Source of the DNA: Apteryx mantelli
Taxonomy: Eukaryota; Chordata; Aves; Apterygiformes; Apterygidae
Reading direction: 5' to 3'
Assembly (NCBI RefSeq): GCF_036417845.1
Contig: NC_090017.1
Coordinates: forward strand, 62,001-126,000
DNA length: 64,000 nucleotides
Shown here: piece after piece, positions 8,801 to 64,000 of the stretch
Layout: each line of letters opens with the position of its first letter
Position numbering within the stretch: the stretch's first letter is position 1
The notes under the pieces: generated by a model
The model's database searches: none
Told to the model about the DNA's origin: nothing
What the model saw: the letters and a program-made list of their open reading frames with translations, nothing else
Translations under genes and position numbers: made by a program

Positions 8801-11800
8801 CAGCTGCTCGCGGGCGTCCTCGGCCGCGAAGATGTTCTGGAAGAGGGGGGACGGTGGGAAGGAAAAGGGGGGAGGGCCGGGATCCAGGATCCCCCCCTCC
8901 CCTCGCGGCGGTGGCCCCTCACCTCCAGGTGCATCCAGTGGCGCTGCGCGGCCAGCGCCGCCTCCGTCACCTCCAGCGCGAGCGAGAGGTCGCGCTCCCA
9001 GCGCTCCAGCTGGGCGCCGAAGGGCTCGGCGTGCCGCGAGGCCTTCATGGCGCCCAGGGAGACCTGCTGCTCCTCCAGCGCCCGCAGCAGCTGCTCCGTG
9101 CCCCTGCGGCGGACGGCGGGTGGGTGGGGGGGGGCTGCGGCGGGGGGGCACGGGGGGGGGGACACGGTGCAGGGGGACGCGGCCTCACTGCAGCTGCCGG
9201 TGGCCCTTGTCCTTGTAGGGGACGATGTCCAGCGTGGTGCGCTCCCACGTCTCGGCCAGGTCCTGCAGGGCCTGGGGTGGGGGGGGAGGGAGGGGGGACA
9301 CGGGAGGAACACGCGTGGGGGGGAGCGGCACGCGTGGGGACGCACACGCAGGGGGGATGGGGCACGGACGTGGGGACGGACGCATGGGCGAACGGGGGCG
9401 GACACGGGGATGACACGGGGACAGACACACAGCTGGATGGACACGTGTGTATGCATGAGGATGGACACGCATGCACACGGGGACAGACATGCGCACAGAC
9501 ATAGGGACGGACACCTGTGTGCACACAGGGACAGACATGCGCACAGACATAGGGACACACGTGTGCACACGGGGACAGACGTGCATGGACACAGGAACAG
9601 ACACACGTGTGCACATGGGGACAGACGTGCACACGGGAACAGGGACGGACACGTGAAAGGACACTGCTCCAGACGTACCAACAGACACGCACAGATGGGG
9701 ACAGACATACACACAGGGATGGACACACGCATGGACGCACATGGATGCGCGCACATGGACACAGGAACAGACGTGCGCACGTGGACACGCACACAGATGC
9801 ACGCAGGGACACAGGGACGGATGTGTGCAGGGACACGGACACACAAGCGCATGGGCATAGGGATGGACGTGTGCACGGGGACGGACATGCGTGCGGACAC
9901 GTGGACGGACACGCGGACGCGGGGGGACGGAGGGGGCCCGGTGGCGGCGGCGGCGCCCTACCCGCTCGAGGGCGAGCTCGCGGGCGGCGGCGGCGGCCAC
10001 GGCGGTGACGGCGGCCGCGTGCCGGTGCAGCCCCAGCCGCAGCAGCGTCTCCAGGCGCGGCTCCTCCGCCTCGGGCTCCAGCGGCCGCTGCAGCAGCGCC
10101 TGCACCTCCGCCCAGTGCCTGCCGCCGCCCCGCGTCACCTGGCGTCACCTGCTGTCCCCGTCACCTCCGCCTGAACCCCCACCAACCCCGTCACCTCCCC
10201 CTGAACCCCCACCAACCCCCGTCACCTCCCCCGAACCACCAGCCACCCCCAAACCCTCCCATCAACCCCCATCACCTCCCACCAACCCCCGTCACCTCCC
10301 ACCAACCCCCGTCACCTCCCCCTGAACTGCTGACAACCCCCGTCACCTCCCAACAACCCCCATCACCTCCCACCAACCCCCGGCACCTTCCCCTGAACCC
10401 CCAGCCAACCCCGTCACCTCCCCCTGAACACCCACCAACCCCCGTCACCTCTCCCTGAACCACCAGCCACCCCCAAAACCTCCCATCAACCCCCATCACC
10501 TCCCGCCAAACCCCGTCACCTCCCCCTGAACCACCAACAACCCCGTCACCTCCCCCGAACCACCAGCCACCCCCAAAACCTCCCGTCAACACCCATCACC
10601 TCCCACCAAACCCCGTCACCTCCCCCTGAACCACCAACCACCCCCAAAACCTCCCATCAACCCCCATCACCTCCCACCAAACCCCGTCACCTCCCCCTGA
10701 ACCCCCACCAACCCCGTCACCTCCTCCGAACCACCAGCCACCCCCAAAACCTCCCGTCAACCCCCATCACATCCCACCAAACCCCGTCACCTCCCCCTGA
10801 ACTGCCAACAACCCCCGTTACCCCCATCAACCCTCGTCAGCACCCACCAACCCCCGCTGTCTCCTGCCAAACCCCGTCACCTGCCCCTGAACCTCCGACA
10901 ACCCCCGTCACCCCATCAACCCGTCACCGCCTGCCAACCCCTGCCAAACCCCATCGCCCCCCCCACCTCCAAAACCCTCGTCACCACCCGCCACCCCCCA
11001 ACGCCTCCCGTTGACCCGTCACCTCCCGTCACTCCCTGCTGCCCCTCGTTGCCGTCACCTCCCGTCACCCCCTCAACCCTCAGCACTGTCGCCTCCCCTC
11101 ATCCCTTGTCACCTCCCACCAACCCCGTCGTTCCCTGCCGATCCCTGTCACCTCCTGCCAGCGCCCCATCGCCTCCTGTCGACCCCGTCAGTCCCCACCA
11201 ACCCTCGTCAGCCCTGTCACCTCTTGTCAACCCCCCACACCCTGCGTCAACCCCGCCCTGTGAACCCCATCACCCATCCTCAACCCCATCAGCTCTTGTC
11301 ACCCCATCAACCTTGTCACCTCTGTCACCCCTTGTCCCTCAGCCCTGTCACCTAGTCAACCCCCATCATCTCTCATCACACCATCAGTCGTGTCACCTCT
11401 CTGTCACCACCCATCAGCTTGTCACCCCCCTCGTCACCACCACCCTCCCACCCACCCACCACCCCGTCTTTCCTCCTCAGCCCCTTGCCACCCGTCTCAC
11501 CCAGCCCTGTCACCCGTTGTCACCCACTATCACCCGTTGTCACCCGCGCCGGCTCACCTCGGCCGCATGGCCGGGTTCCTCAGGGCGTCGACGAGCGGCA
11601 CCGTCCGCCGGAAGTCGTCCACCAGCGCCGCCGTCGTCTCCACCACGTCCCAGCGGCGGCCCTGGGCGGGACGGGGCGGGTTGGGGGGCAGGTTGGGGGG
11701 CGCCGGGCCCCCCCCCAGGACCCCCCCGCGGCCCCTCACCTCGAGCTCGCGGCTCAGCCGGAGCAGCCGGCGGGCCAGCTCGGTGGCCGCCGCCTCCGCG

Positions 11801-17800: not shown

Positions 17801-20800
17801 TCCCGGCAGAATAAAACACCCCCCGGCCCGAGCGGGAGCCAGCTGAACAGGCGTCTCAACCACCCGCTCGGGTTGTAGAGCCCCGAAGCGCGGGGCAGTC
17901 GTCACCGCGCGCTGTGTGTGTGTGGGGGGGGGGGGGGCCGCGCGGCGCACCTCGCGGGCGGCGAGGGGCTGGAAGGCATCCTGCAGCGCCACGCCGTGCT
18001 CCACGTCCCGCACGGTCTCAAAGGCGGCGGCCAGCAGGTTCTGCGTCATCACCTCCAGGTCCTTGACACCGGCGCGGAACCTGGCGGGGGGGGGGGGGGG
18101 GGACACGGGGACGCGCTCGTGGCCTGCGCCATCCCCGGGGCGGGTGCCGGGGGGCCGCGGCGCCGCCTCCTCACCGGCTGAAGGCGTCGTGCCAGCGGGG
18201 GTTTTTCACGTCGAGGACGTCGCCGGCGGCGGCGCGCAGCGCCCGCAGGTGCTTCCCGAAGGTCTCCTCGATCTCCGCCAGGCTCTGCGCCAGCTGCGGC
18301 CCCCGCTGCCCGGAGAAGCGGGGCGGGGGGCTCTGCTGCCCGTCCTCCCAGCGGCCAAAGTGCTCCTGGCAGTCGCACACCTGGCGGCGGGGGGCACATG
18401 GGCGTTGTCACCGCGCGCGGGGGGGTGTCACCGCACACCGGGGGGGGCGGGGGGGTGTCACCGCGCGCGGCCCCACCTCCAGGAGGTCCTTGCAGCGCTG
18501 GGCGAAGGCGTCCGCCTGGGCGAAGATGCTGCTCTGGTCGAGGACCCAGCCCTGCTCCGAGAGCCTGGCGGCAGCCGCAGGGCAAGGGGGGGCGCTCAGG
18601 GGGGGCCGCGCGGTGCTCAGCGCCCCCATGGGCATGCCAACGCCCCCCCGGGGGGGCATGGGGCAGGGGGGCAGCCAGAGCCCCCGCACCACCAGCCCTC
18701 GGCAGCGCCTTGTCGGCCACTGAACCACCCCGCAGGCGGAAAGCGGAAGAGGACAATTAACACCCGCGCTTAATTAACACTCAAGGGCGCCTGTTTCCGC
18801 ACACCGTCCCCCAGCAGCAGGACGGATTCGGGCAACAGGAATTGGGGCACTTCCATTTGGGGGGGGTGGGGGTTCCCTCTCCTCGCTCCCCCCTCTGGAG
18901 AGTCCGGGACAGAAAGGGGGAGCCAGAGGGAGACGAGAGGCCACCAAGGGCCAAATCCCACTGTTCCGGGGCCGCCCCCACCCAGGGACAACCCAAACGC
19001 TTCCCGCCCGGAGCGGGGAGCCCCCGACCTGTTGTGCATGCGGGCGGCGCGCAGGTAGCTCTCCTTCCAGGCCTCCATGCAGCAGACGCAGTCACGCAGG
19101 CGGCGGCGGCTGGAGGCCACGTAGCCCTCGAAGAGGCGCTCGGGGGCCACGTGGCGGCAGCACAGGCCGATGAGGTCGTTGCTCACCTGGCGGAGCGGCG
19201 CGTGAGCGCGGCGGTGGCAGCAGCACCGGGGGGGGGGACGCGGCACACGGCCACCGCCGGCACGCGGCTCACCTTGCGCAGCAGGGCGGCGACGCGCTGG
19301 CGCGAGTTGTAGTGGGGCGAGCGGAGCCAGACGACGCGCACCAGGCCGAGGAGGCGCGGCAGGCGCGGCGGCAGGGCGGCGGGCGCCAGTGCCCCCAGCT
19401 CCCGCAGCGGCTCCTCCAGCACCCGCAGGAAGCGCGCGTTGGAGCGCGCCTCCTCGGAGCCGGCCTGCGCGGAGGAGGCGGGTGGGACGGGGGCCTCCCC
19501 CGAACCCCCCGTGGGCCCCCCCCCGACCCCCCGTGGGCCCCCCCCGACCCCCGAACCTCGATCTGCCGGGCGAGCTCCTGGAAGGGCGCCAGGTAGGAGG
19601 AGCGGGCGCGGGCCAGCAGGGTGGCGAGGCGGCGCACGCCGGGGCGCACCAGCTGCCGCCGCACGGCGCACAGGTGGGCGCAGCGGCGCTGCCAGAAGCC
19701 GATCTCCTCCAGCGGCCCCGCGCTCTCCCGGCTCTCCGTCGCCTCCTGCGCCCGCAGCACCTCCTTGATCTGCCGCGTCCAGTGGATGACGGAGGCTGCG
19801 GGGTGGGGGGGTGGCTCAGGGCGCCGTTTCGGCTCGCGTTGCCCCAAACGGGCAGCGTCCGCGCTCATTCCGGTTGCCCCGTTGCAGCCAGGTTGAGGGG
19901 ACACGTGCGGGTGCCGGCAGGAGTTTCGGGAAACCCAGCGCAGGATTTTCCGCCCGTCCGCAGCGAGGAATTTGAAGGAGGGCACGCTCACGGGGAGGGG
20001 GGGCGCGGCAAGGACGTGCGTGCCGGGAGGGGGCCGTTCGTGCCGCCGGCAGCAGCCGGTCACTCACGCTCCAGGCGCTGCACCAGGGCCCTGTCGGCGG
20101 CGGCCGCCTCGGGCTCGGCGGTCAGGGCTTCCACGGGGACGTAGAGCACGGTGCGGCCCCGCAGGCGGGAGCAGGTGTCTGGGGAGGCGGCAGCGGTCGG
20201 GCTGCAGCGCGGGGGACCCGCCGTGCCGCCCCGCGCCGCCCCGGCACCGCCGCTTACCCACGAGCGAGGTCATGAAGCGGTAGGCCTCGGCGAAGAACTC
20301 GCCGCGCACGCTCTCGGGCCAGGCGGCGCCGCCACCGCAGAGCCGCGGCAGCAGCAGCGTCTCGAGCAGGCGCCGCAGCGAGGCCAGGCAGGGCCGGCGC
20401 ACCGTGCCGAACTGCACCGCCCGCCCAAAGTTGGCTGCCGTGATCTCGGCGCTGCTCAGGCGGATGAAGAAGGCGAGCTGCTCCGGTTCCTGCCGGAGAA
20501 AGCCCGGGATGGGGCCGCCCGCCGGGGGGGCCGCGACAGCATCCCGTTATGCTGAGGGAGGCGGAGGCCCCGGTGCCGCCCGGAGCCAGGCGCGGCCGCA
20601 GGGTTTTGCCCCGGGGCAGGACAGGAGGGACCCGCGCGCGCTGCACGGCGTGGCGCGGCGCAGCACCCACCTGGAGCGGCATGGCGTGCTGCACCCGCAG
20701 GCCGGCGGCCTCGTCCACATAGACGACGAGCAGCTGGGTGGTGCCGTCCTTGAGGAAGAGCTCGAGGGCGGCGTCGTGCTGCGCCGTCCACGCGTGGGCC

Positions 20801-26400: not shown

Positions 26401-29400
26401 GCCCCCCCGTGTCCCCGCCCACGCGTGTGCTCCCCGTGCGTGGGCCGCGTGTCCCCGCCCACGCGTGTGCTCACCGTGCGTGGGCCGCGTGTCGCAGACG
26501 CGCCCCGGGTGGCCGGTGGCGAAGACCCTCACGGCGCCGTCGAAGCCGCACAGCAGCTCGGTGCCGTCGGGCGAGAAGCAGAGGCTCCGCGCCGCTTCCA
26601 GCTCGTCCTGCCGCCCCGGACGCCTGGGTCCCTCGGACGCCGGGGCCCCTTGGGATCCACCAGCCCTCCCGCCCCGGACGCCTGGGCCCCTCGGAATCCA
26701 CCCGCCCTCCCGCCCCGGACGCCGGGGCCCCTCGGAATCCACCCCCTGGATGTCTGGGCCCTGCTCCCACCCGGACGCCTGGGCCCTCCCGTCCTGGACG
26801 CCTGGGCCCTCACCAGGTGGTTGTAGGCGCGGAAGGAGCCCCCCGCCCCCCCCCGGACGCCTGGGCCCCCCCGTCCCGGACGCCTGGGCCCTTACCAGGT
26901 GGTTGTAGGCGCGGAAGGAGCCGCGCAGGCTCCCGTCGAAGGCGTCCCAGAGGTGCACGGGGTTGTCCCGGCTGCTGCTGGCCACCCTGCGCCCCCCCCC
27001 CACGCTCCCAGTATGCCCAGTGCTCCCAGTAACCACCTCAGTGACCTCCCCCAGTGCTCCCAGTATGCCCAGTGCTCCCAGTAACCCCCTCAGTGACCTC
27101 CCCAGGGCTCCCAGTAACCCCCAGCACCCTCCCCCAGTGCTCCCAGTATGCCCAGTGCTCCCAGTAACCCCCAGCGCCCCCCTCCAGGGCTCCCAGTAAC
27201 CCCCAGCGCCCTCCCCTGGTGCTCCCAGTAACCCCCAGCACCTCCCTCCAGGGCTCCCAGTATCCTCCAGTGCTCCCAGTAAGTCCCCAGTAGCTTTCCC
27301 CTGTGCTCCCAGTATCCCCCAGTGCTCCCAGCATGCCCCCACTCCCCTCAGTAACCTCCCTGTATCCCTCCCAGTAACCCCCAGTGCTCCCCCCCATGAC
27401 TTCCCAGTGTTCCCAGTAACCCCCAGCTCCCTGCCCAGGGTCCCCCAGCACCCCCAGTCTCCCAGTTCCCCCCCCAGTCCCCCCACCCCAGTGCTCCCAG
27501 TCCCTCCCAGTGCCTCCCAGTGCCCCCCGGTCCCCCCAGCCCCCTGTCCCCGTGCTCCCAGTGCCTCCCAGTGCCCCCCAGTGCCCCCCAGTGCTCACAG
27601 GCAGGAGGAGGGCCGGGCCGAGGCCATGCCGGGCAGCCAGCAGTAGTCGTAGATGGTGTCGCCCTCCGGCACCCGCAGCGCCGGCACCTGCGCCCGGACG
27701 CCTGGGTCCCTCGCCCGGGACCCCCGACCCCCCCCCAGACCCCCCAATACCCGCCGGGACCCCCCCAAATCCCCCTGCATCCCCCAACACCCCCCGGGTG
27801 CCCCTAAGTGCCCTGGGGACCCCCTAAATAGCCCCCAGACCCCCCTAAACACCCCCTAGATGCCCCATGGGGCCCCCCAACACCCCTAAAGGCCCCCCGG
27901 GACCCCCCAGGTACCCCGGGGACCCCCCCAAACACCCTAGGGGGCCCCCAGCATCCCATGGGACCCCTTAAATACCCCTGGGACACCCCCCCCAGATACC
28001 CCCTAGGACCCCCAAACACCCCCTGGGCCCCCCTAGATACCCCAAGGCCCCCCCAAATATCCCCTGGGACCCCCAAATGCCCCTGGGACCCCCCCAGATA
28101 CCCCAAGGACCCCTAAATACCCCATGGGGCCCCCTAAAACCACCCTAGGACCCTCTAGGGACCCCAAGGGCCCCCCTAAACACCCCTTGGGACCCCCCCA
28201 AACACCCCCCTGACACCCTAATGCCCCCAGAACCCCCCTAAGCACCCCCTGAGACCCCCAAATACCTCCTGGGCCCCCCCCAATCTACCAAGGGCCCCTA
28301 AATACCCCCCCGGGACCTCCAAATACCCCCCAGGACCCCTTAAAATACCCCAGGACCCCCCCAACCCCCCCAGGACCCCCCCCCGATGCCCCCCGGGGCA
28401 GGTACCAGCTCGGGCAGGGCCCCCCCCGGGGCCCCCCCCAGCGCCGGGGGCAGGTCGTAGATGCGCAGCGTGTTGTCGTTGCTGCAGGTCAGCAGGCAGG
28501 AGCCGTCGGGGGCCCTGCGGGGGCCCAGGCGTCCAGGAGGGCTCGGGGCAGCCCCGGCCTCCACAACCCCCTCCCCCCTGCCAGGGGCCCAGGTGTCCGG
28601 GACCCCCCCCTCCCTCCCCCCCCCCGATTGCTCCCAGGCACCCAAGTGTCCAGGACCCCCTGCATTACTATGAGGGGCCCAGGCGTCCGGGACCCCCGAT
28701 TGCTCCCAGGGGCCCAGGTGTCCGGGACCCCCTGTGTCACTACCAGGGGCCCAGGCGTCCGGGACCCCCGATTGCTCCCAGGGACCCTGGCGTCCAGGAC
28801 CCCCCCCCCCCCCAACCACTGCAAGGGGCCCAGGCGTCCAGGCCGGGCTCCCCCCCCTCCCCGATTGCTGCCAGGGGCCCAGGCGTCCGGGACCCCCAAT
28901 TGCTCCCAGGGGCCCAGGCATCCGGGACCCCCCCAACCACTACAAGGGGCCCAGGCGTCCGGGCTGAGCTCCCCCCCCTCCCCGATCTCTGCCAGGGGCC
29001 CAGGCTTCCGGGTGCCCCCCCCCCCCAAGGGGCCCAGGCGTCCGGCTCACCACTTGCAGCCCTTGAGGAAGTTCTCGGGCCGCCGGCCGTACTCCTCCCG
29101 CGCCTCCGCCACCAGCCGGGGGGGCCGCTGCAGCTCCGCGGGGGGGGGCCTGCGGGACCCAGGCGTCCGGGACCCCCCCACACGCATCACACCGGGGGGC
29201 CCAGGCGTCCGGGACCCCCCCCACCAGGACCCAGGTGTCCAGGACTCCCCTCCCCCAATCACACAGGGGGCCCAGGCGTCCGGGGACCCCCCCCCCCACC
29301 AGGACCCAGGCGTCCGGGACCCCCCCACACGCATCACACAGTGGGCCCAGGCGTCCGGAGACCCCCCCACACACACATCACGCCGGGGGGCCCAGGCGTC

Positions 29401-29907
29401 CGGGACCCCCCCCACTCCCCCCACCAGGACCCAAGCGTCCGGGACCCCCCCCTCACATCACACCAGGGGGCCCAGGCGTCCGGGGACCCCCCAGGGACCC
29501 CCCCACCCCCAGGGGACCCAGGCGTCCTGCCCCCTCCCCCCTGGAAGGGGGGGGGCCCAGGCATCCAAAACCCCCCCACACACACACCAGGGGGACCCAG
29601 GCGTGAGGGACGCCCCCTCCCCTACCCACAGTGGGCCCAGGCTTCCGGGGGGGGTGGAGGGGCCCAGGCGTCCTGCCCCCCCCCCCCAGAGGGGGCCCAG
29701 GCGTCCGGGACACTCACGGCTCCTCCTCGGGGTCCTGGGGCTCGGCGGGGTCCCCCCCCTCGGCGGGGGGGGCTGCCGGGGGCTGCGGGGAGGGGGGAAG
29801 GAATCAGCACGGCCGCGGGCCCAGGCGTCCGGCAGCCCCCCCCACCCGTCCGGGACCCCGGGACCCCCCCCCCCGCTCCCCGCACCTTCCTCCATGGAGG
29901 CCGCCAT
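23413..29907 (-). CDS. WRAP53: WRAP53 (TCAB1/WDR79), telomerase and Cajal-body WD40 protein
   Basis: WD40-repeat protein that binds the CAB box of scaRNAs and telomerase RNA and brings them to Cajal bodies. Diagnostic blocks in order: [146 protein letters not shown] and the end LQLWWWGGG. Exons: 29886-29907, 29718-29782, 29051-29149, 28406-28514, 27599-27687, 26896-26986, 26475-26607, 25664-25872, 25034-25137, 24263-24406, 23413-23590. Start MAASMEE is the best candidate. The frame from exon 1 through exons 2-3 is off by one base across G/C homopolymers, so the short acidic N-terminus (about 30 residues before RPENF) is uncertain. From exon 3 on every junction keeps frame. Confidence 0.95.
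23640..25025. repeat. CCCAGGCGTCCGGG minisatellite, WRAP53 introns
   Basis: Two blocks (23640-24250, 24440-25025) of a 14-16 bp core CCCAGGYRTCCGGG spaced by C runs. The same core recurs to about 49900 in four genes. Confidence 0.95.
25140..25660. repeat. CCACCCCC-rich low-complexity intron of WRAP53
   Basis: Degenerate CCACRCCCCC repeats, nearly G-free on the + strand, between exons 25034-25137 and 25664-25872. Confidence 0.75.
25900..26510. repeat. WRAP53 intron: CACCCC-rich part, then minisatellite copies of the exon 7 edge
   Basis: 25900-26125 is low-complexity. From 26130 to 26510, units of about 40-65 bp (ACGCGTGTGCTCMCCGTGCGTGGGCCGCG, spoken in parts) repeat six or more times, and the real exon 7 3' edge (26475 on) is one of them. 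Confidence 0.9.
26610..26895. repeat. CCCGGACGCCTGGGCCC minisatellite with a partial copy of exon 6, WRAP53 intron
   Basis: Same core as the dispersed minisatellite but in opposite orientation. At 26808-26841 it includes a 30-bp copy of the end of exon 6. Confidence 0.92.
27000..27595. repeat. Minisatellite CCCAGTGCTCCCAGTA, WRAP53 intron
   Basis: About 35 copies of a 10-20 bp unit between exons 26896-26986 and 27599-27687. Confidence 0.95.
27715..28395. repeat. Minisatellite GGGACCCCCAAATACCCC, WRAP53 intron
   Basis: Units of 15-20 bp filling the intron. The transcript strand is G-rich, with many G3-G6 runs. Confidence 0.93.
28520..29710. repeat. CCCAGGCGTCCGGGACCC minisatellite, WRAP53 introns
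   Basis: Units of 35-60 bp around the CCCAGGCGTCCGGG core on both sides of exon 29051-29149. Confidence 0.95.
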
Positions 29908-29949
29908 GACGGCCGAAGCCCCGCCCCCTCCCCAGCGGGGAAACCTCGC

Positions 29950-30145
29950 ACAAGTCTCGCGAGAGCGGAAGCGGTGGGCGGGGAAAAAAGAGAACCACAC
30001 CCGTCCGCCGCGTTTATTGGCTACAAATCGCGCGAGATTTCGCGCCCGCCGCTTCCCCCTCCCTCCCCGCCGCGCAGCCCGATGACGTCACGCCCGCCGG
30101 CTCCGGAGCAGTCTCGCGAGAGTTCCGGCGAAGTCTCGCGAGGTT
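29950..30145 (-). promoter_or_regulatory. WRAP53: WRAP53 promoter: CRE, TCTCGCGAGA elements, CCAAT
   Basis: Within 200 bp upstream of the proposed ATG (29907) are exact TCTCGCGAGA palindromes at 29955-29964 and 30112-30121, a 9/10 match at 30134-30143 and a partial one near 30028. There is also a palindromic CRE TGACGTCA at 30083-30090, a CCAAT on the transcript strand at 30015-30019 and a GGAAG ETS-like core near 29966. TCTCGCGAGA is a known core element of housekeeping CpG-island promoters, fitting a ubiquitously used telomerase factor. Confidence 0.75.
30013..30018 (-). terminator. TNFSF13: Possible TNFSF13 poly(A) signal AATAAA inside the WRAP53 promoter
   Basis: The transcript strand reads CCAATAAACG: an AATAAA about 1.23 kb after the TNFSF13 stop, overlapping a CCAAT box for WRAP53. 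It is the only canonical signal I found between 31246 and 29950. A closer non-canonical site cannot be excluded. Confidence 0.45.
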
Positions 30146-30174
30146 TCGTTGCTTGGCTTGGAAGAGGGGGGAGG

Positions 30175-31245
30175 GGACCCAGGCGTCCGGGCAGCGACTT
30201 CACCCCCCAACGGGGGGGACCCAGGCGTCCGGGCCGTCCTGGAGCAGTGACACCGGGGCCACGGGGGTGCCCGGACGCCGGGGCCCCTGGTTCCCGGACG
30301 CCGGGGCCCCTCATTGCCCGGACACAGGGGGGTCCCAGTTCCCGGACGCCTGGGCCCCTCACTGCCCGGACTCCGGGACCCCTGGTTCCCGGACGCCAGG
30401 GCCCTTCATTACCCGGAGGCGGGGGGGTCCCGGTTCCCAGATGCCGGGGCCCCTCGCTGCCCGGATGCGGAGGGTCCTGGTTCCTGGACGCCGGGGCCCC
30501 TCATTGCCCGGACACGGGGGGGGGTCCTGGTTCCCCGGACACTGGGGCCCCTCGCTGCCCAGACTCCGGGGCCCCTGGTTCCCAGACTCCAGGGCCCCTC
30601 ATTGCCCAGATGCCGGGGGGTCCCGGTTCCCGGATGCTGGGGCCCCTCGCTGCCCGGATGTGGAGGGTCCTGGTTCCCGGATGCCAGGGCCCCTCATTGC
30701 CCGGACACGGGGGGGGTCCCGGTTCCCGGATGCTGGGGCCCCTCGCTGCCCGGACTCCAGGACCCCTGGTTCCCAGACTCCAGGGCCCCTCATTGCCCAG
30801 ATGCCGGGGGGTCCCGGTTCCCGGATGCTGGGGCCCCTCGCTGCCCGGATGTGGAGGGTCCTGGTTCCTGGATGCCGGGGCCCCTCATTGCCCGGACACG
30901 GGGGGGTCCCGGTTCCCAAACTCCAGGGCTCTTCACTGCCCAGATACCAGGGCCCCTCGCTGCATGGATGTGGAGGGTCCTGGTTCCTGGACGCCTGGGC
31001 CCCTCATTGCCCGGACACAGGGGGGTCCCAGTTCCCGGATGCCTGGGCCCCTCATTGCCCGGACACAGGGGGGTCCCAGTTCCCGGACGCCGGGGCCCCT
31101 CATTGCCCGGACGCAGGGGGGTCCCAGTTCCCGGACGCCGGGGCCCCTCGCTGCCCGGACGCAGGGGGGTCCCAGTTCCCGGACGCCGGGGCCCCTCGCT
31201 GCCCGGATGCAGGGGGTCCCAGTTCCCGGACGCCTGGGCCCGGCG
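30175..31245. repeat. Minisatellite of 60-66 bp units between the WRAP53 promoter and the TNFSF13 stop
   Basis: Units: GTTCCCGGACGCCGGGGCCCC then TCRYTGCCCGGACRCRGGGG. About 16 copies in the reverse orientation of the core. Probably part of the TNFSF13 3' UTR. Confidence 0.95.
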
Positions 31246-34200
31246 CTAGAGGCGGACGATGCCCAGGAAGGTGCCGTGGGCGCTGAGGTCGAAGGAGGCG
31301 TTGGCCCGCGGCACCCGCAGGTGCAGGCGGTCGCCGCTGCGCAGCCGGAACACGCCTGCGACACGCCGCGCACACGGGGGGACACACATGCACACAGGGG
31401 GACAGCACACGGGGGGACACGCACATGGGGACACACACATGCACACGCCATGCACATGGGGACATGGAAACAGGGACACGCACATGGGGACGTGCACACG
31501 GGGACACGCACACGCCACGCACATGGGGACACGGACACGGGGACACGCACATGGGGACACACACACAGCATGCACATGCCACGCACATGCCACATGGGGA
31601 CATTGGCACACGGGATGCACATGGGACACGAGGGACGGGGGACAGGGGGGACACGGGGTCAGTGATGGTCTTTGACCCCCCCCAGTCCCTCCCAGTCCCC
31701 CCAGTTCCCTCCCAGTTCCCCCAGTCCATCCCAGTCCCTCCCAATCCCTCCCAGTCGATCCCAGTCCCTCCCAGTTCCCCAGTCCCCCCAGCCCCCCAGT
31801 GGATCCCAGTGCCCCCAGTCCCCCCCAGCCCCCCCAGTCCCCTCCAGTTCCCCCCAGTCCCCCCAGTTGATCCCAGTCCCTCCCAGCCCCCCAGTTCCCC
31901 CAGTTCCCCAGTCCCCCCCAGCCCCCCCCAGTGGATCCCAGCAGATCCCAGCACCCCCAGTCCATCCCAGTCCCTCCCAGTTCCTCAGTCCCCCAGCCCC
32001 CTCAGTGGATCCCAGTCCCTCCCAGTCGATCCTGGTTCCCCCCATTCCCCCCAGCCCCCCCCACCCCCAGCAGATCCCCGCAGATCCCCGCAGATCCCCG
32101 CGCCCCCAGTGGATCCCAGTCCCTCCCAGTGGATCCCAGTCCCCCCAGCAGATCCCAGCGGATCCCAGTGGATCCCTGCACCCCCAGTCCATCCCAGCCC
32201 CCCCAGCCCCCCAGTGGATCCCAGTCCCTCCCAGCTGATCCCAGCAGATCCCAGCAGATCCCCGCAGATCCCCGCGCCCCCAGTGGATCCCAGTCCCTCC
32301 CAGTGGATCCCAGTCCCCCCAGCAGATCCCAGCGGATCCCAGTGGATCCCTGCACCCCCAGTCCATCCCAGCCCCCCCAGCCCCCCAGTGGATCCCAGTC
32401 CCTCCCAGCTGATCCCAGCAGATCCCAGCAGATCCCCGCAGATCCCCGTGCCCCCAGTGGATCCCAGTCCCTCCCAGTGGATCCCAGTCCCCCCAGCAGA
32501 TCCCAGCGGATCCCAGTGGATCCCCGCACCCCCAGTCCATCCCAGCCCCCCCAGTGGATCCCAGTCCCTCCCAGTGGATCCCAGTCCCCCCAGCCCCCCC
32601 CCAGCGGATCCCGGCGGATCCCGGCGCCCCCCCCCCCCGTACCGGCGGTGAAGCAGGAGGCGTGGGCGCGGGGGGGGGCGGCCATGCTGCGGACGCAGCG
32701 CAGCAGCGGCTGGGGGGGGCCCCGGCGCCCCCCCCGCACCAGCACCTGCCCCATGGTGAACGTGGGGTCCGTGAACAGCACCTGCCCCCCGCGAAACACG
32801 CCTCAGCGCGCGCATCGACACGCCTCTGCACGCCTCGACACGCCTCGACACGCCTCCGCACGCCTCGACACGCCTCCACACGCATCCGCACGCCTCCGCA
32901 CGCATCCACACGCATCCACACGCATCCACACACATCCACACGCCTCAGCGCGCGCATCCACATGCATCAACACCCATCAACACACGCCTCGACATGCATC
33001 AACATGCTACCGTGCACACCTCTGCATGCCTCCATATGTGTCCACATGCCTCAACACACCTGAGCACGCCTAGACACGCTACAGTGCATGCCTCTACACG
33101 CCTCCACACACCTCCATGTGCCTCAGCACGTGCCTTGGCATGCCTCAGCATGCCTCAACATGCCTCAGCACACGCATCAGCACACCTCGACACGCCTCCG
33201 CATGCCTCAACACGCTACAGTGCACACCTCGACATGCCTCGACATGCCTCCATGCGCCTCAGCACACCTGCGCACGCCTCCACACACCTCCACACGCCTC
33301 CACACGCTACAGTGCATGCCTTGACACGCCTCAACATGCCTGAGCACGCCTGTGCATGCTTGCACACGCCTCTGCACACACCCCTGCATGTGTCATGCCC
33401 CAACATGCCTCAACACGCACCAACACAGCTCACACACGCCTGCATGCAGCGCTTACATGTGTGGGGCTGGCACGGAAGGGGGGACTGGGGACATGGGGAC
33501 ACGTTGGGGACACGTTGGGGACAAGTTGGGGACATCGGGGACACGGGGACATGGGGACACATTGGGGACAAGGGTGTCACCTGGCTGTAGACGAGGTAGA
33601 GGCCGGGACACCAGATGGGGACATGGGGACACGGGGATGTGGGGACACATTGGGGACACATTGGGGACATGGGGACACGTTGGGGACATAGGGACACATT
33701 GGGGATGTTGGGGACACGTTGGGGACGTTGGGGCCGCAGGTGTCACCTGGCTGTAGACGAGGTAGAGGCCGGGGTGCCACATGGGAACATGGGGGCAGGG
33801 GGACACATTGGGGACACGGGGACACGTTGGGGACATTGGGGACACGTTGGGGACGCGGGTGTCACCTGGCTGTACACGAGGTAGAGGCCAGGGCACCAGA
33901 TGGGGGTGTGGGGACACATTGGGGGACACGTTGGGGACACATTGGGGACATGGGAACACGGGGGACACGTTGGGGACATTGGGGACGCGTTGGGGCCGCG
34001 GGTGTCACCTGGCTGTAGACGAGGTAGAGGCCGGGGTGCCACATGGGAACATGGGGACGTGGGGACACATTGGGGACACGGGGACATTGGGGACACATTG
34101 GGGACACGGGGGACACGTTGGGGACATTGGGGACGCGTTGGGGACGCGGGTGTCACCTGGCTGTAGACGAGGTAGAGGCCGGGGCTCCGCACGGTCACCA

Positions 34201-37200
34201 GGGGCCCCGCGGGCTCCAGCGCCCGGCCCTGGCGCAGCGCCGGCTCCCAGGCCACCTCGGTGACGTCCCCCTCGCCTGTCCCACCGCGGTGGCACCACCG
34301 TCACCGCCGTGTCACCACCATGGGACCCCCCCCCCCCATGGGACCCCCCCCCCCCGGCCACCTCGGTGACGTCCCCCTCCATGTCACCTCCATGGCACCC
34401 ATGGGACCCCCCCCCCCCAGGCCACCTCGGTGACATCCCACTGTGGTGGCACCCATGTCACCTCCATGTCACCTCCATGGCACCCATGGAACCCCCCCCC
34501 CCCAGGCCACCTCGGTGACATCCCACCGTGGTGGCACCCATGTCACCTCCATGTCACCTCCATGGGACCCCATGGGACCCCCCCCAAGCCACCTCGGTGA
34601 CGTCCCCCTCCATGTCATCTCCATGGCACCCATGGGACCCCCCCCAGGCCACCTCGGTGACGTCCCACCGTGGTGGCACCCATGTCACCTCCATGTCACC
34701 TCCATGGCACCCATGGGACCCCCCCCAGGCCACCTCGGTGACATCCCACCGTGGTGGCACCCATGTCACCTCCATGTCACCTCCATGGGACCCCCCAGGC
34801 CACCTCGGTGACGCCCCCCTCCATGTCACCCTCATGGCACCCATGGGACCCCACGGGACCTCAGGGACCCCCCCCCCCCAACCGCAGGACCCCCGACCCC
34901 AGGCCACCGGGGGCCCAGGCGTCCGGGACACCCCCCCCCTGCCCCCCCCCCATCCTGGGGACCCTCCAGCCACCGGGGGCCCAGGCGTCCGGGGACACGC
35001 ACCGACGCTGAAGCGGCTGTTGGGGACGAGGTGCAGCACAGCCCGGGTGCCTGGGGACGCGTCACCCGTGTCACCTGTGTCCCCCCCCATGTCCCTCCAT
35101 GTCCTTCCATGTCCCCCCATGTCCCCCCATGTCCCCCCATGTCCCTCCATGTCCCCCATGTCCCCCATGTCCCCCTATGTCCCTCCATGTCCTCCATGTC
35201 CCCCTATGTCCCTCCATGTCCCCCATGTTCCTCCATGTCCCCCATGTCCCCCATGTCCCTCCATGTCCCTCCATGTCCCTCCATGTCCCCCCATGTCCCC
35301 CATGTCCCTCCATGTTCCTCCATGTCCTCCATGTCCCTCCATGTCCCCCCATGTCCCCCCATGTCCCTCCATGTCCCTCCATGTCCCCCATGTCCCCCAT
35401 GTCCCTCCATGTCCCCCCATGTCCCTCCATGTCCCTCCATGTCCCTCCATGTCCCTCCATGTCCCCCATGTCCCCCCATGTCCCTCCATGTCCCCCCATG
35501 TCCCCCATGTCCCTCCATGTCCCTCCATGTCCCTCCATGTCCCCCATGTCCCCCCATGTCCCTCCATGTCCCCCATGTCCCTCCATGTCCCTCCATGTTC
35601 CTCCATGTCCCTCCATGTCCCTCCATGTCCCCCATGTCCCCCCATGTCCCTCCATGTCCCTCCATGTCCCCCATGTCCCTCCGTGTCCCTCCATGTCCCC
35701 CCATGTCCCCCCATGTCCCCCCATGTCCCTCCATGTCCCCCATGTCCCTCCATGTCCCTCCATGTCCCTCCATGTCCCCCCATGTCCCCCATGTCCCTCC
35801 ATGTTCCTCCATGTCCTCCATGTCCCTCCATGTCCCCCCATGTCCCCCCATGTCCCTCCATGTCCCTCCATGTCCCCCATGTCCCCCATGTCCCCCATGT
35901 CCCTCCATGTCCCCCCATGTCCCTCCATGTCCCTCCATGTCCCTCCATGTCCCTCCACGTCCCCCCCGTCCCGTGTCCCCGCACTCACGGGACTCCCAGG
36001 CTCTCGCCGGGGGGGTCCCCAGCTCCCGGCGGTCGCGGCCGCCCCAGGGGTCCTGCGAGGGCGCAGGGGTCACGCCGGGGGCCCAGGCGTCCGGGTGCCA
36101 CCCCCACCCCCCCCCCCCAGCCGGCACCCGGCACGTACGTGTCGCCCAGCCCGGCGCACACGTGAGGACACGCCTGGACACGCAGCGCCACCGGCTGCCG
36201 CCAGCCCCGGGGCCCAGGCGTCCGGGAGGGGCCTTGCTCCCGCCGCGAGGCCTCCCTGCCCCGAGGGGCCCAGGCGTCCGGGGACCCAGGTGTCCGGGAC
36301 CCACCCAACCTGGGGGCCCAGGCGTCCGGGACCCCCCACCCCAGGGGCCCAGGTGTCCAGGACCCCCCACCCCCAGGGACCCAGGTGTCCAGGACCCACC
36401 CAACCTGGGGGCCCAGGCGTCCGGGACCCCCCACCCCCAGGGACCCAGGCGTCCGGGCCCAGGGGACCCAGGCGTCCGGGGGCCCAGGTGTCCGGGACCC
36501 CCCACCCCAGGGGGCCCAGGTGTCTGGGACCTCCCACCCCAGGGGGCCCAGGCGTCCGGGACCCCCCACCCCAGGGGCCCAGGTGTCCGGGACCCCCCAC
36601 CCCAGGGGGCCCAGGCGTCCGGGACCCACCCAACCTGGGGGCCCAGGCGTCCGGGACCCCCCACCCCCAGGGACCCAGGCGTCCGGGCCCAGGGGACCCA
36701 GGCGTCCGGGGGCCCAGGTGTCCGGGACCCCCCACCCCAGGGGGCCCAGGTGTCTGGGACCTCCCACCCCAGGGGGCCCAGGCGTCCGGGACCCCCCACC
36801 CCAGGGGCCCAGGTGTCCGGGACCCCCCACCCCAGGGGGCCCAGGCGTCCGGGACCCACCCAACCTGGGGGCCCAGGCGTCCGGGACCCCCCACCCCCAG
36901 GGACCCAGGCGTCCGGGCCCAGGGGACCCAGGCGTCCGGGGGCCCAGGTGTCCGGGACCCCCCCACCCCAGGGGGCCCAGGTGTCTGGGACCTCCCACCC
37001 CAGGGGGCCCAGGCGTCCGGGACCCCCCACCCCAGGGGCCCAGGTGTCCGGGACCCCCCACCCCAGGGGGCCCAGGCGTCCGGGACCCACCCAACCTGGG
37101 GGCCCAGGCGTCCGGGGGACCCGGGTGTTCGGGGACCCAGGCGTCCGGGACCCCCCAACCCCAGGGACCCAGGTGTCCGGGGGCCCAGGCGTCCGGGACC

Positions 37201-37433
37201 CCCCAACCCCAGGGACCCAGGTGTCCGGGGACCCAGGCGTCCGGGACCTCCCACCCCAGGGGGCCCAGGCGTCCGGGGGGCCCCGGCGTCCGGCTCACCT
37301 GCAGCCGCCCCCGCAGCTCCTCCAGCTGCGCCCGCAGCGCCCCCAGCTCCCGCCGCTGCTCCAGCACCGCCGCCAGGCACAGCAGGGCCCCCAGGGCCGC
37401 CCCCCCCGCCAGCCACCGCCCCCCCGCCCCCAT
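31246..37433 (-). CDS. TNFSF13: TNFSF13 (APRIL), TNF-family ligand
   Basis: Type II membrane or secreted cytokine that in mammals binds TACI and BCMA and supports plasma cells. Six exons: 37299-37433, 35989-36052, 35003-35050, 34157-34275, 32643-32781, 31246-31355. Phases are consistent, giving about 204 residues. Exon 1 encodes MGAGGRW, a hydrophobic segment (LAGGAALGALLCLAAVL) and a heptad-like stalk. The TNF-homology domain has VLHLVP, GDVTEVAWEPALRQGR, GLYLVYSQVLF, DPTFTMGQV, the disulphide pair RCVRSM/SCFTA and the end HGTFLGIVRL, all APRIL-specific. The basic heparan-binding QKQKKQ motif of human APRIL is not seen before VLHLVP. Introns are unusually repeat-rich, and exon 4 lies between minisatellites containing copies of its own edges. 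Confidence 0.95.
31365..32640. repeat. Minisatellites of TNFSF13 intron 5
   Basis: 31365-31650: GGGGACACGCACATG units. 31680-32640: CCCAGTGGATCCCAGTCCC units, with a superunit near 177 bp repeated about three times (starts near 32093, 32270, 32447). Confidence 0.93.
32800..34155. repeat. Minisatellites of TNFSF13 intron 4
   Basis: 32800-33450: ACACGCCTCCACACGCATC units. 33470-34155: GGGGACACRTTGGGGACA units interleaved with four copies of the 3' edge of exon 4. Confidence 0.95.
34290..34870. repeat. Minisatellite of TNFSF13 intron 3 containing copies of the 5' edge of exon 4
   Basis: Units of 60-85 bp: GGCCACCTCGGTGACRTCCC, then GTGGCACCCATGTCACCTCC, then a C run. About seven copies. The exon's own GDVTEVAW coding segment is the homologous part. 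Confidence 0.93.
35080..35965. repeat. Minisatellite ATGTCCCTCC / ATGTCCCCC, TNFSF13 intron 2
   Basis: About 90 copies of a 9-10 bp unit with an occasional TTC or CTC variant. A roughly 540-bp superunit seems to recur (35220-35400 resembles 35760-35940). Confidence 0.96.
36070..37295. repeat. CCCAGGCGTCCGGG higher-order array, TNFSF13 intron 1
   Basis: The core repeats every 25-35 bp. A superunit of about 240 bp, marked by GACCCACCCAACCTGGGGG, occurs near 36390, 36622, 36855 and 37084 with few differences. Confidence 0.95.
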
Positions 37434-39128: not shown

Positions 39129-42100
39129 TCAGCGCACCTGGAAGAGGCCGAAGTAGGTGAGGTAGGGCTCGGGCTTGAGGCGGACGCGGGGCAGGGTGCG
39201 CAGCGCCAGGGGGGCGGCGGGCGGCAGCGCCAGGAGCCCCCCCAGGCGGCAGCCCCGCAAACGGGCCCCGGCGTCGCCCGGCCGCGGCGGCGGCAGCTGC
39301 TCCAGGCACCGCAGCGCCAGCGCCCCCCCCACCGCCACCTCCAGCTTCAGGTAGGCCGTGCCCGCCTCGTCGAAGTGCGCCTGCCGGGGGGGGGGGGGGA
39401 CGGGCCCAGGCGTCCGGGTGAGCGGGGCGTCACCCCCCCCACCCCGACCCTGCGCACGCCCCTGGGGGCCCAGGCGTCCGGGGGCCCAGGTGTCCGGGTG
39501 AGCGGGGGCGTCACCCCCCCCACCCCGACCCTGCGCACGCCCCTGGGGGCCCAGGTGTCCGGGGGCCCAGGCGTCCGGGTGAGCGGGGCGTCACCCCCCC
39601 CACCCCAACCCTGCGCACGCCCCTGGGGGCCCAGGCGTCCGGGTGAGCGGGGCGTCACCCCCCCCACCCCGACCCTGCGCACGCCCCTGGGGGCCCAGGC
39701 GTCCAGGTGAGCGGGGGCATCACCCCCCCCCCCACCCTGACCCTGCGCAAGCCCCTGGGGGCCCAGGTGTCCGGGTGCTGACCTCCCCCCTCACCCCCCA
39801 GGGCCCAGGTGTCTGAGGGGCCCAGGCGTCCCGGCACTGACCCTCCACCCTCCTGGGACCCTGGTGTCCAAGGGGCCCAGGCGTCTGGGGGCCCGGGTGT
39901 CTGAGGGGCCCAGGCGTCCTGGCACTGACCCTCCACCCTCCTGGGACCCTGGTGTCCAAGGGGCCCAGGCGTCCGGGGGCCCAGGTGTCTGAGGGGCCCA
40001 GGCGTCCCGGCACTGACCCTCCACCCTCCCAGGGCCCAGGTGTCCAAGGGGCCCCGGCGTCCGGGTGCTGATTCTCCCCCCTCCCGGGGCCCCGGTGTCC
40101 GAGGGGCCCAGGCGTCCGAGGGGCCCCGGCGTCCGGCGCACCTGGCTGTAGAGGTAGTAGAGGCCCGGCCGGGCCACGCGGAAGCCGCCGCTCGCCGGGT
40201 CGTAGCTCAGCGGCGACGTCGCGTTGAGCCGCGACTCGGCCCAGCCCCGGATCGTCCCGTCCGCCTCTGCGCGGGGACACGGGGGGGGGGGCAGCGTGGG
40301 GCCGTGGGGACACCGTGGGGACATCGGTGGGATACGGGGATGCTGGGGGCATGGGGACATGGGGACACTGGGGGGACACTGGGGGGACACCATGGGGGGA
40401 CATGGGGACACCATGGGGACACCAGGGACATGGGGACACCGTGGGGACATCGGGGGGACATGGGGATGCCGGGGGCACGGGGACACCATGGGGACACCAT
40501 GGGGACATGGGGTGACATGGGGACATCATGGGGACATGGGGACACCAGGAGGACATGGGGACACCATGGGGACATGGGGTGACATGGGGACCCTCCAGGA
40601 CACCATGGGGACAGAGACCCCCCCCCGGGGACAGCCCCCCTTCCCCCGGCTGGGAGGGACCCAGGCGTCCGGGCCCCCCCCCCCGTTACCTGCCAGGATC
40701 CCGTCCCGCGACGCTCCGGCCTGAACTGCAACGGCAGCACCCGGTCACGGGCGCCCGGACGCCTGGGCCCCCCGGACGCCTGGGCCCCCCGGACGCCTGG
40801 GCCCTCGCGGGCTGGGGGAAGGGCGCCCGGACGCCTGGGTCTTCCATCCGGGGGAGGGGATCTGCCCCTGGGTGCCCCCCCCGGCCCCCCAGGTGCCCCC
40901 CACCCCTGGGTGCCCCCCCGGCCCCCCCTCACCTTCGTAGTGGGCGGCCCAGGCCGGGGCGGCAGCAGCTTTGCGGCTTCGGGGCCTCTTCCGGGGCGCT
41001 GCAACGGCAGTGAGGGTGCAGGGGCCCAGGCGTCCGGGGGGCCCAGGCGTCCGGGCATGGCCCCATCCCCCCCCAGGGGGCCCAGGTGTCCGAGGGGCCC
41101 AGGCGTCCGGGCATGGCCCCATCCCCCCTGGGGGGCCCAGGCATCCGGGGGGCCCAGGCATCCGGGCACGGCCCCATCCCCCCCCAGGGGGCCCAGGTGT
41201 CCGAGGGGCCCAGGCGTCCGGGCATGGCCCCATCCCCCCTGGGGGGCCCAGGCATCCGGGGGGCCCAGGCGTCCGGGCACATCCCCACCCTTCCAGGGCA
41301 CCCAGGAATCCAGGGGGCCCAGGTGTCCGGGCATGGCCCCATCCCCCCTCATGGGACCCAGGCGTCCAGGGGGCCCAGGTGTCCGGGCATGGCCCCATCC
41401 CCCCCCAGGGGGCCCAGGCGTCCGAGGGGCCCAGGCGTCCGGGCATGGCCCCATCCCCCCTCATGGGACCCAGGCGTCCGAGGGGCCCAGGCGTCCGGGC
41501 ACTCACCAGCGCGCCGGTGCCGGGGCGGCCGGGGCTGCTCCTGGCTCAGGCCCCGGGGCAGGAGCTGCAAGGGGGGGGGTGGAAATGGGGGTAAAAAGGG
41601 TGTAAATGGGGCAAATGGGGTGTGAACGGGGAGAAAGGGGGGTAAAGGGGGTGTAAACGGGGGGTACCGGCACCTACCCCGGGCGGCTCCAGCGCCGACG
41701 CCCCCCCCTGCAGCAGCGCCTGGGGAGAGACGGGGCCGTGACCCCCCCGGGACCCAGGCGTCCGGGCTCTGCCCCCTCCCCCGCCCGGACGCCTGGGCAC
41801 CCCTGGCCTGGCCGTGCTAGTGGGGTTCGCGCCGGGCTTTTGCACGGGGTTTGTGAGACGTTTGCACAGCGTTTGCACGGCGTTTGCACAGCGTTTGCAC
41901 GGTGTTTGCACAGCGTTTGCAAGGAGTTTGCACAGCGTTTGCACGGCGTTTGCACAGCGTTTGCACGGTGTTTGCACAGCGTTTGCATGGAGTTTGCACA
42001 GCGTTTGCACGGCGTTTGCACAGGGTTTGCACAGGGTTTGCATGGTGTTTGCACAGGGTTTGCACAGCGTTTGCATGGTGTTTGCACGGCGTTTGCACAG

Positions 42101-45335: not shown

Positions 45336-64000
<18,665 letters not shown>

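Follow-up and report, generated by a model that had tools for sequence, protein, structure and literature searches.

In Apteryx mantelli, the 3′ edge of exon 4 of the TNFSF13 gene occurs repeatedly, along with its splice donor, in the adjacent intron. This array joins the already described phenomenon of exon stuttering as a new example. In chicken, where the phenomenon was characterized, a lateral part of an exon and its donor or acceptor are copied into the adjacent intron (Hron et al., 2026; PMC12954441). For the Apteryx array, we judge the explanation to be very probably exon stuttering on a dot-type microchromosome of this bird, with the extra donors as a tolerated by-product. The analysis centered on a 64,000-nucleotide stretch of DNA (the window) within contig C41 (640,892 bases), and the genome searched comprised 1.50 Gb in 408 contigs.

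TNFSF13 lies on the minus strand of the window, where six joined exons give an open frame of 204 codons and a stop. In this gene model, the coding part of exon 1 extends from the ATG over 37299..37433 (own-genome match at C41:99296-99433) and is followed by exon 2 (35989..36052), exon 3 (35003..35050), exon 4, the stuttering exon (34157..34275, with acceptor GGGACAG and donor GTGACACC), exon 5 (32643..32781), and the coding part of exon 6 up to the stop (31246..31355). The initial annotation had likewise placed the end of exon 4 at 34157. In the PDB, the encoded protein matches APRIL (1u5x, E 1.8e-43; 1xu1, 3.9e-43) and 4zch, a fusion entry with APRIL as its first part (1.4e-82), while BAFF is a much weaker match (E about 4e-19). 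A TNF domain is also found in the protein (Pfam TNF, 41.6 bits). The six-exon model is sound, and its product is nearest to APRIL among PDB entries. One flank of the gene holds POLR2A, recognized by its domains, and a TNF-family exon at 40136-40255, which we read as probable TNFSF12 from its place and sequence; the other flank holds WRAP53 and DNAH2. The human counterpart of this block contains TP53. Only about 2.8 kb (28490-31245) lies between TNFSF13 and the WRAP53 segments, and the TP53 block of human is absent there. Scanning the genome for p53 domains, with 11 candidates scored, gave matches at C9 and C26 only; these loci are perhaps TP63 and TP73.

A 32-nt motif, GGTGTCACCTGGCTGTAGACGAGGTAGAGGCC, spans the end of exon 4 and its donor and is present in five copies, all on the minus strand. 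The copy at 34149..34180 (A1) is the true exon end with its donor, and four extra edges lie in intron 4 at 34001..34032 (A2), 33858..33889 (A3), 33739..33770 (A4), and 33573..33604 (A5); A3 has one mismatch and the remaining four copies are exact. From 33573 to 34149, the copies are spaced 166, 119, 143, and 148 nt apart, and the spacers are a minisatellite of 11-nt, TGGGGACACGT-like units arranged head to tail. On the transcript strand, CAG/GTGACA is found in all five copies. The motif search thereby bears out the initial annotation, which had described the exon 4 edge and donor as repeated five times in tandem at a spacing of 119-166, with minisatellite between the copies and the donor kept in each. 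At up to three mismatches, the motif had zero matches in 100 dinucleotide shuffles of the window; at eight mismatches, the search found one further place, 40134, which is the corresponding exon end of the neighboring TNF gene. The copied source begins at 34157, the last base of the exon, and 24-28 nt of exon 4 are carried. The four extra edges are held within a minisatellite array at 33485..34148, where a G4 motif covers 73% of the plus strand vs. a mean of 6% in shuffles. The head-to-tail 11-nt units between the edges resemble an ordinary intronic minisatellite (VNTR). Unlike an ordinary VNTR, however, the higher-order unit of 119-166 nt contains a piece of coding exon and a donor.

The opposite edge of exon 4 is repeated as well, a feature that had been overlooked in the initial annotation. 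In intron 3, the 5′ exon 4 edge recurs seven times within an array at 34356..34815, on the minus strand; the cores of these copies end at 34373, 34437, 34522, 34604, 34664, 34745, and 34815. These copies fall into two kinds of unit, and none of the seven keeps the CAG/GCGAG of the true acceptor. One further weak match to this edge lies far off, at 10012.

Two other genes in the window show the same pattern. Among 52 coding segments, which were chosen by eye with the TNFSF13 exon spans added and with plus-strand and repeat-like rows omitted, three had copies in an adjacent intron scoring above 42.1 bits (TNFSF13 exon 4, one WRAP53 exon, and one POLR2A exon), compared to a best score of 30.2 bits in shuffled sequence for the same screen; because the segments were chosen in this way, 3/52 provides no rate for all exons. 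The WRAP53 exon has one extra edge at 26778..26840 (minus strand; source 26860-26922), which carries 45 nt of the exon. The POLR2A exon has two, at 53000-53034 and 53084-53146 (minus strand; source within 53181-53420), which carry up to 63 nt of the segment. All three are donor-side copies, given where the POLR2A exon appears to end. For another POLR2A segment (48040-48279), distant matches at 34908 and 37178 were discarded as repeat.

A second version of the region was found in the same assembly, on contigs C230 (60,878 bases) and C308 (37,617 bases). All 54 anchor segments had a colinear place in it, 26 on C230 and 28 on C308, after eight short off-diagonal matches were set aside. Identity was at least 97.5% in 50 of the 54, the lower ones being 311-400, 17966-18115, 18995-19204, and 31246-31355. 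Both contigs end inside intron 4 of TNFSF13. With the true edge counted, exon 4 has five donor-side edges in C41 vs. three in C230, and eight acceptor-side edges vs. four; the true acceptor sequence is kept in 0/3 of the acceptor-side copies of C230. WRAP53 has one extra edge in C41 vs. four in C308, and POLR2A has two in each version. The POLR2A edge copies (window 53000-53146 vs. C230 24042-24199) differ between versions, while their source segment is identical. Introns 1, 2, and 3 of TNFSF13 measure 1246, 938, and 727 nt in C41 vs. 1102, 5810, and 430 nt in C230, and intron 2 (L017:1070-6879 vs. window 35051-35988) is filled with a CCCTCCATGT-type repeat. In exons 1, 5, and 6 of TNFSF13, C230 and C308 show single-base gaps relative to C41, which reflect either sequencing error or a broken version.

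C230 and C308 are probably the other haplotype of the region. The complete colinearity of the anchors, their high identity, and the break inside intron 4 are expected of haplotype contigs and suggest that the two versions are allelic. We consider it unlikely that the second version is instead a segment duplicated to another place in the genome. The single-base gaps could mean a decaying copy, but could equally be sequencing error in G runs. A duplicated segment would alter only the matter of allelism and would leave the verdict on the array unaffected.

The second version also bears on the possibility that the array is a false assembly repeat of one true edge, to which we give hardly any credence. 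Assembling long repeats is difficult, and the break in the second version does fall in the same intron. However, the units differ from one another by 8-16% and in length, which is not expected of a false repeat, and C230, which was assembled apart from C41, has more than the one true edge. With three edges on this separate contig, a collapsed or misassembled repeat with one true copy appears unlikely. Between versions, unit A2 of C41 is 97.3% identical to unit B2 of C230, vs. 84-92% for A2-A5 among themselves. We read A2, A4, and B2 as one putative unit type and assign A3 and A5 to a second, with B3 a poor fit to both. The four extra donor-side units of C41 alternate x, y, x, y; of the two extra units in C230, the first is clearly x. 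Comparing unit pairs gives 87.4% identity within C41 and 92.4% between the nearer C41 pair and the pair of C230, so the extra pair of C41, instead of being a recent gain, may be an old one that has disappeared from C230.

The initial annotation had proposed that five equivalent donors might yield length variants or simply be tolerated. We gauged donor strength by the energy with which each site would pair to the sequence taken as the start of U1 RNA. By this measure the five C41 donors are indeed equal, and they are the top five of 178 GT sites from 34157 to 32800. Splicing at the extra C41 donors would lengthen exon 4 by 148, 291, 410, or 576 nt. Two of the four shift the frame; of the two in-frame extensions, one runs into a stop, and that to the donor at 33866 (291 nt) alone gives a stop-free insert, of 97 aa. 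Both extra donors of C230, which would extend the exon by 151 and 302 nt, are out of frame. The frame of exon 4 is open from 34273 down to 33746, with a TGA at 33745-33743; the minus-strand stretch previously given as free of stops, 33743-34255, is open as far as 33746, but its last three bases are that stop. When the bases of the 664-nt array were shuffled 1000 times, 275 of the shuffles had an open frame at least as long as the longest one in the array. The length of that frame is therefore attributable to base composition, and we rejected it as a sign of function.

Over the three genes and both versions, GT is kept in 11 of 15 extra donor copies and lost in four. TNFSF13 keeps it throughout (4/4 in C41 and 2/2 in C230), WRAP53 in 1/1 copies of C41 and 2/4 of C308, and POLR2A in 1/2 of each version. 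Among gap-free columns of the six extra TNFSF13 units, 3/35 are variable in the 35-nt border vs. 24/71 in the rest (Fisher p 0.0046). This lower variability could reflect constraint, although the rest of the unit is slippage-prone repeat. In the WRAP53 control, 2/35 border columns and 7/47 of the rest are variable, and one of the two border changes hits the donor itself; for this reason, the TNFSF13 border was not accepted as proof of function.

It is conceivable, but very unlikely, that the extra donors are functional, being bound by U1 and either giving longer APRIL forms or tuning exon 4 splicing. Their equal, top-ranking pairing energies, the GT kept in all six extra TNFSF13 donors, and the less variable border would agree with such a role. 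Against it stand the single stop-free in-frame donor among four in C41 and the two frameshifting donors of C230, the unequal copy number between versions, the loss of GT in 4/9 WRAP53 and POLR2A copies, and the true acceptor sequence being found in 0/7 (C41) and 0/3 (C230) acceptor-side copies. A still more improbable variant casts the array as a reserve of U1 docking sites, present in different numbers on different alleles; individual birds would then differ in exon 4 splicing or in an APRIL form that carries the 97-residue insert. Of the two outcomes initially envisaged, tolerance is better supported than length variants, which have little backing, only one of the four extra C41 donors being suitable.

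Our preferred explanation, exon stuttering with tolerated donors, treats the edge copies as most likely a mutational by-product. We infer a route that starts with copying errors in DNA that is very rich in GC and prone to repeats; slippage, unequal exchange, or the repair of breaks would duplicate a stretch across the exon-intron border. The edge copies would then expand and shrink as part of the intron minisatellite. Coding exon 4 would be left intact, with the first donor most likely the working one and the extra donors tolerated. GC content in the region is 63-79% per 2 kb, and tandem repeat makes up 52.5%; composition, repeats, and gene content suggest that C41 may be a dot chromosome. The richness of the array in G4 motifs fits a route through replication or repair errors, without proving it.

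The paralogue TNFSF13B offers a control in a different setting. It is located on C1, a 222.9-Mb contig, in 30 kb of sequence with 38.7% GC and 0.5% tandem repeat. Within these 30 kb, its four matched exon pieces gave no further copy scoring above 28.2 bits. The intron that corresponds in position to TNFSF13 intron 4 spans about 95 nt. A match on C13 was considered as TNFSF13B and rejected, having a single matching exon on comparison; it is presumably EDA. Elsewhere in the genome, a cytochrome b search gave one locus, C5:76869236-76869688, an old nuclear insertion of the mitochondrial gene that contains stops. Among single chains, the globin exons of this genome score best against hemoglobins taken to be from birds, and its beta-globin exon is not identical to the top chains.

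As reported in the main text on chicken, exon stuttering affects 236 introns of 115 genes, 190 of them on dot chromosomes, with a median of 36 nt of exon (range 20-187 nt) and four copies, and the copied part lies within 1 base of the exon border in over 90% of cases (Hron et al., 2026; PMC12954441). Of 192 such introns, 183 vary in length among birds, and other birds are mentioned there in passing. As speculation, the same authors invoke meiotic conversion, or errors of replication or repair where DNA is GC-rich or forms G4 (PMC12954441). The Apteryx copies resemble the chicken cases, as there described, in being imperfect tandem copies of a lateral exon part and splice site with their source at the exon border. 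They also resemble them in lying in GC-rich, repeat-filled introns, and in being absent from the compared paralogue on another chromosome, here TNFSF13B. Variation in intron length, which in chicken occurs also within individuals, would be a further likeness if the two Apteryx versions are alleles of one bird. The exon parts copied in TNFSF13 (24-28 nt), WRAP53 (45 nt), and POLR2A (up to 63 nt) are inside the chicken range. Unlike the chicken cases, they occur in a different bird, and TNFSF, POLR2A, and WRAP53 have no occurrence in the main text of PMC12954441. The stuttering of both edges of one exon, as in TNFSF13 exon 4, is likewise a case that we did not encounter in the chicken descriptions consulted.

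Taken as exon stuttering outside chicken, the TNFSF13 array brings the phenomenon to a B-cell cytokine gene, to both edges of a single exon, and to two versions of unequal copy number. It provides a small locus in which to study the origin of such copies and the way splicing settles on the correct donor when five identical donors are present.
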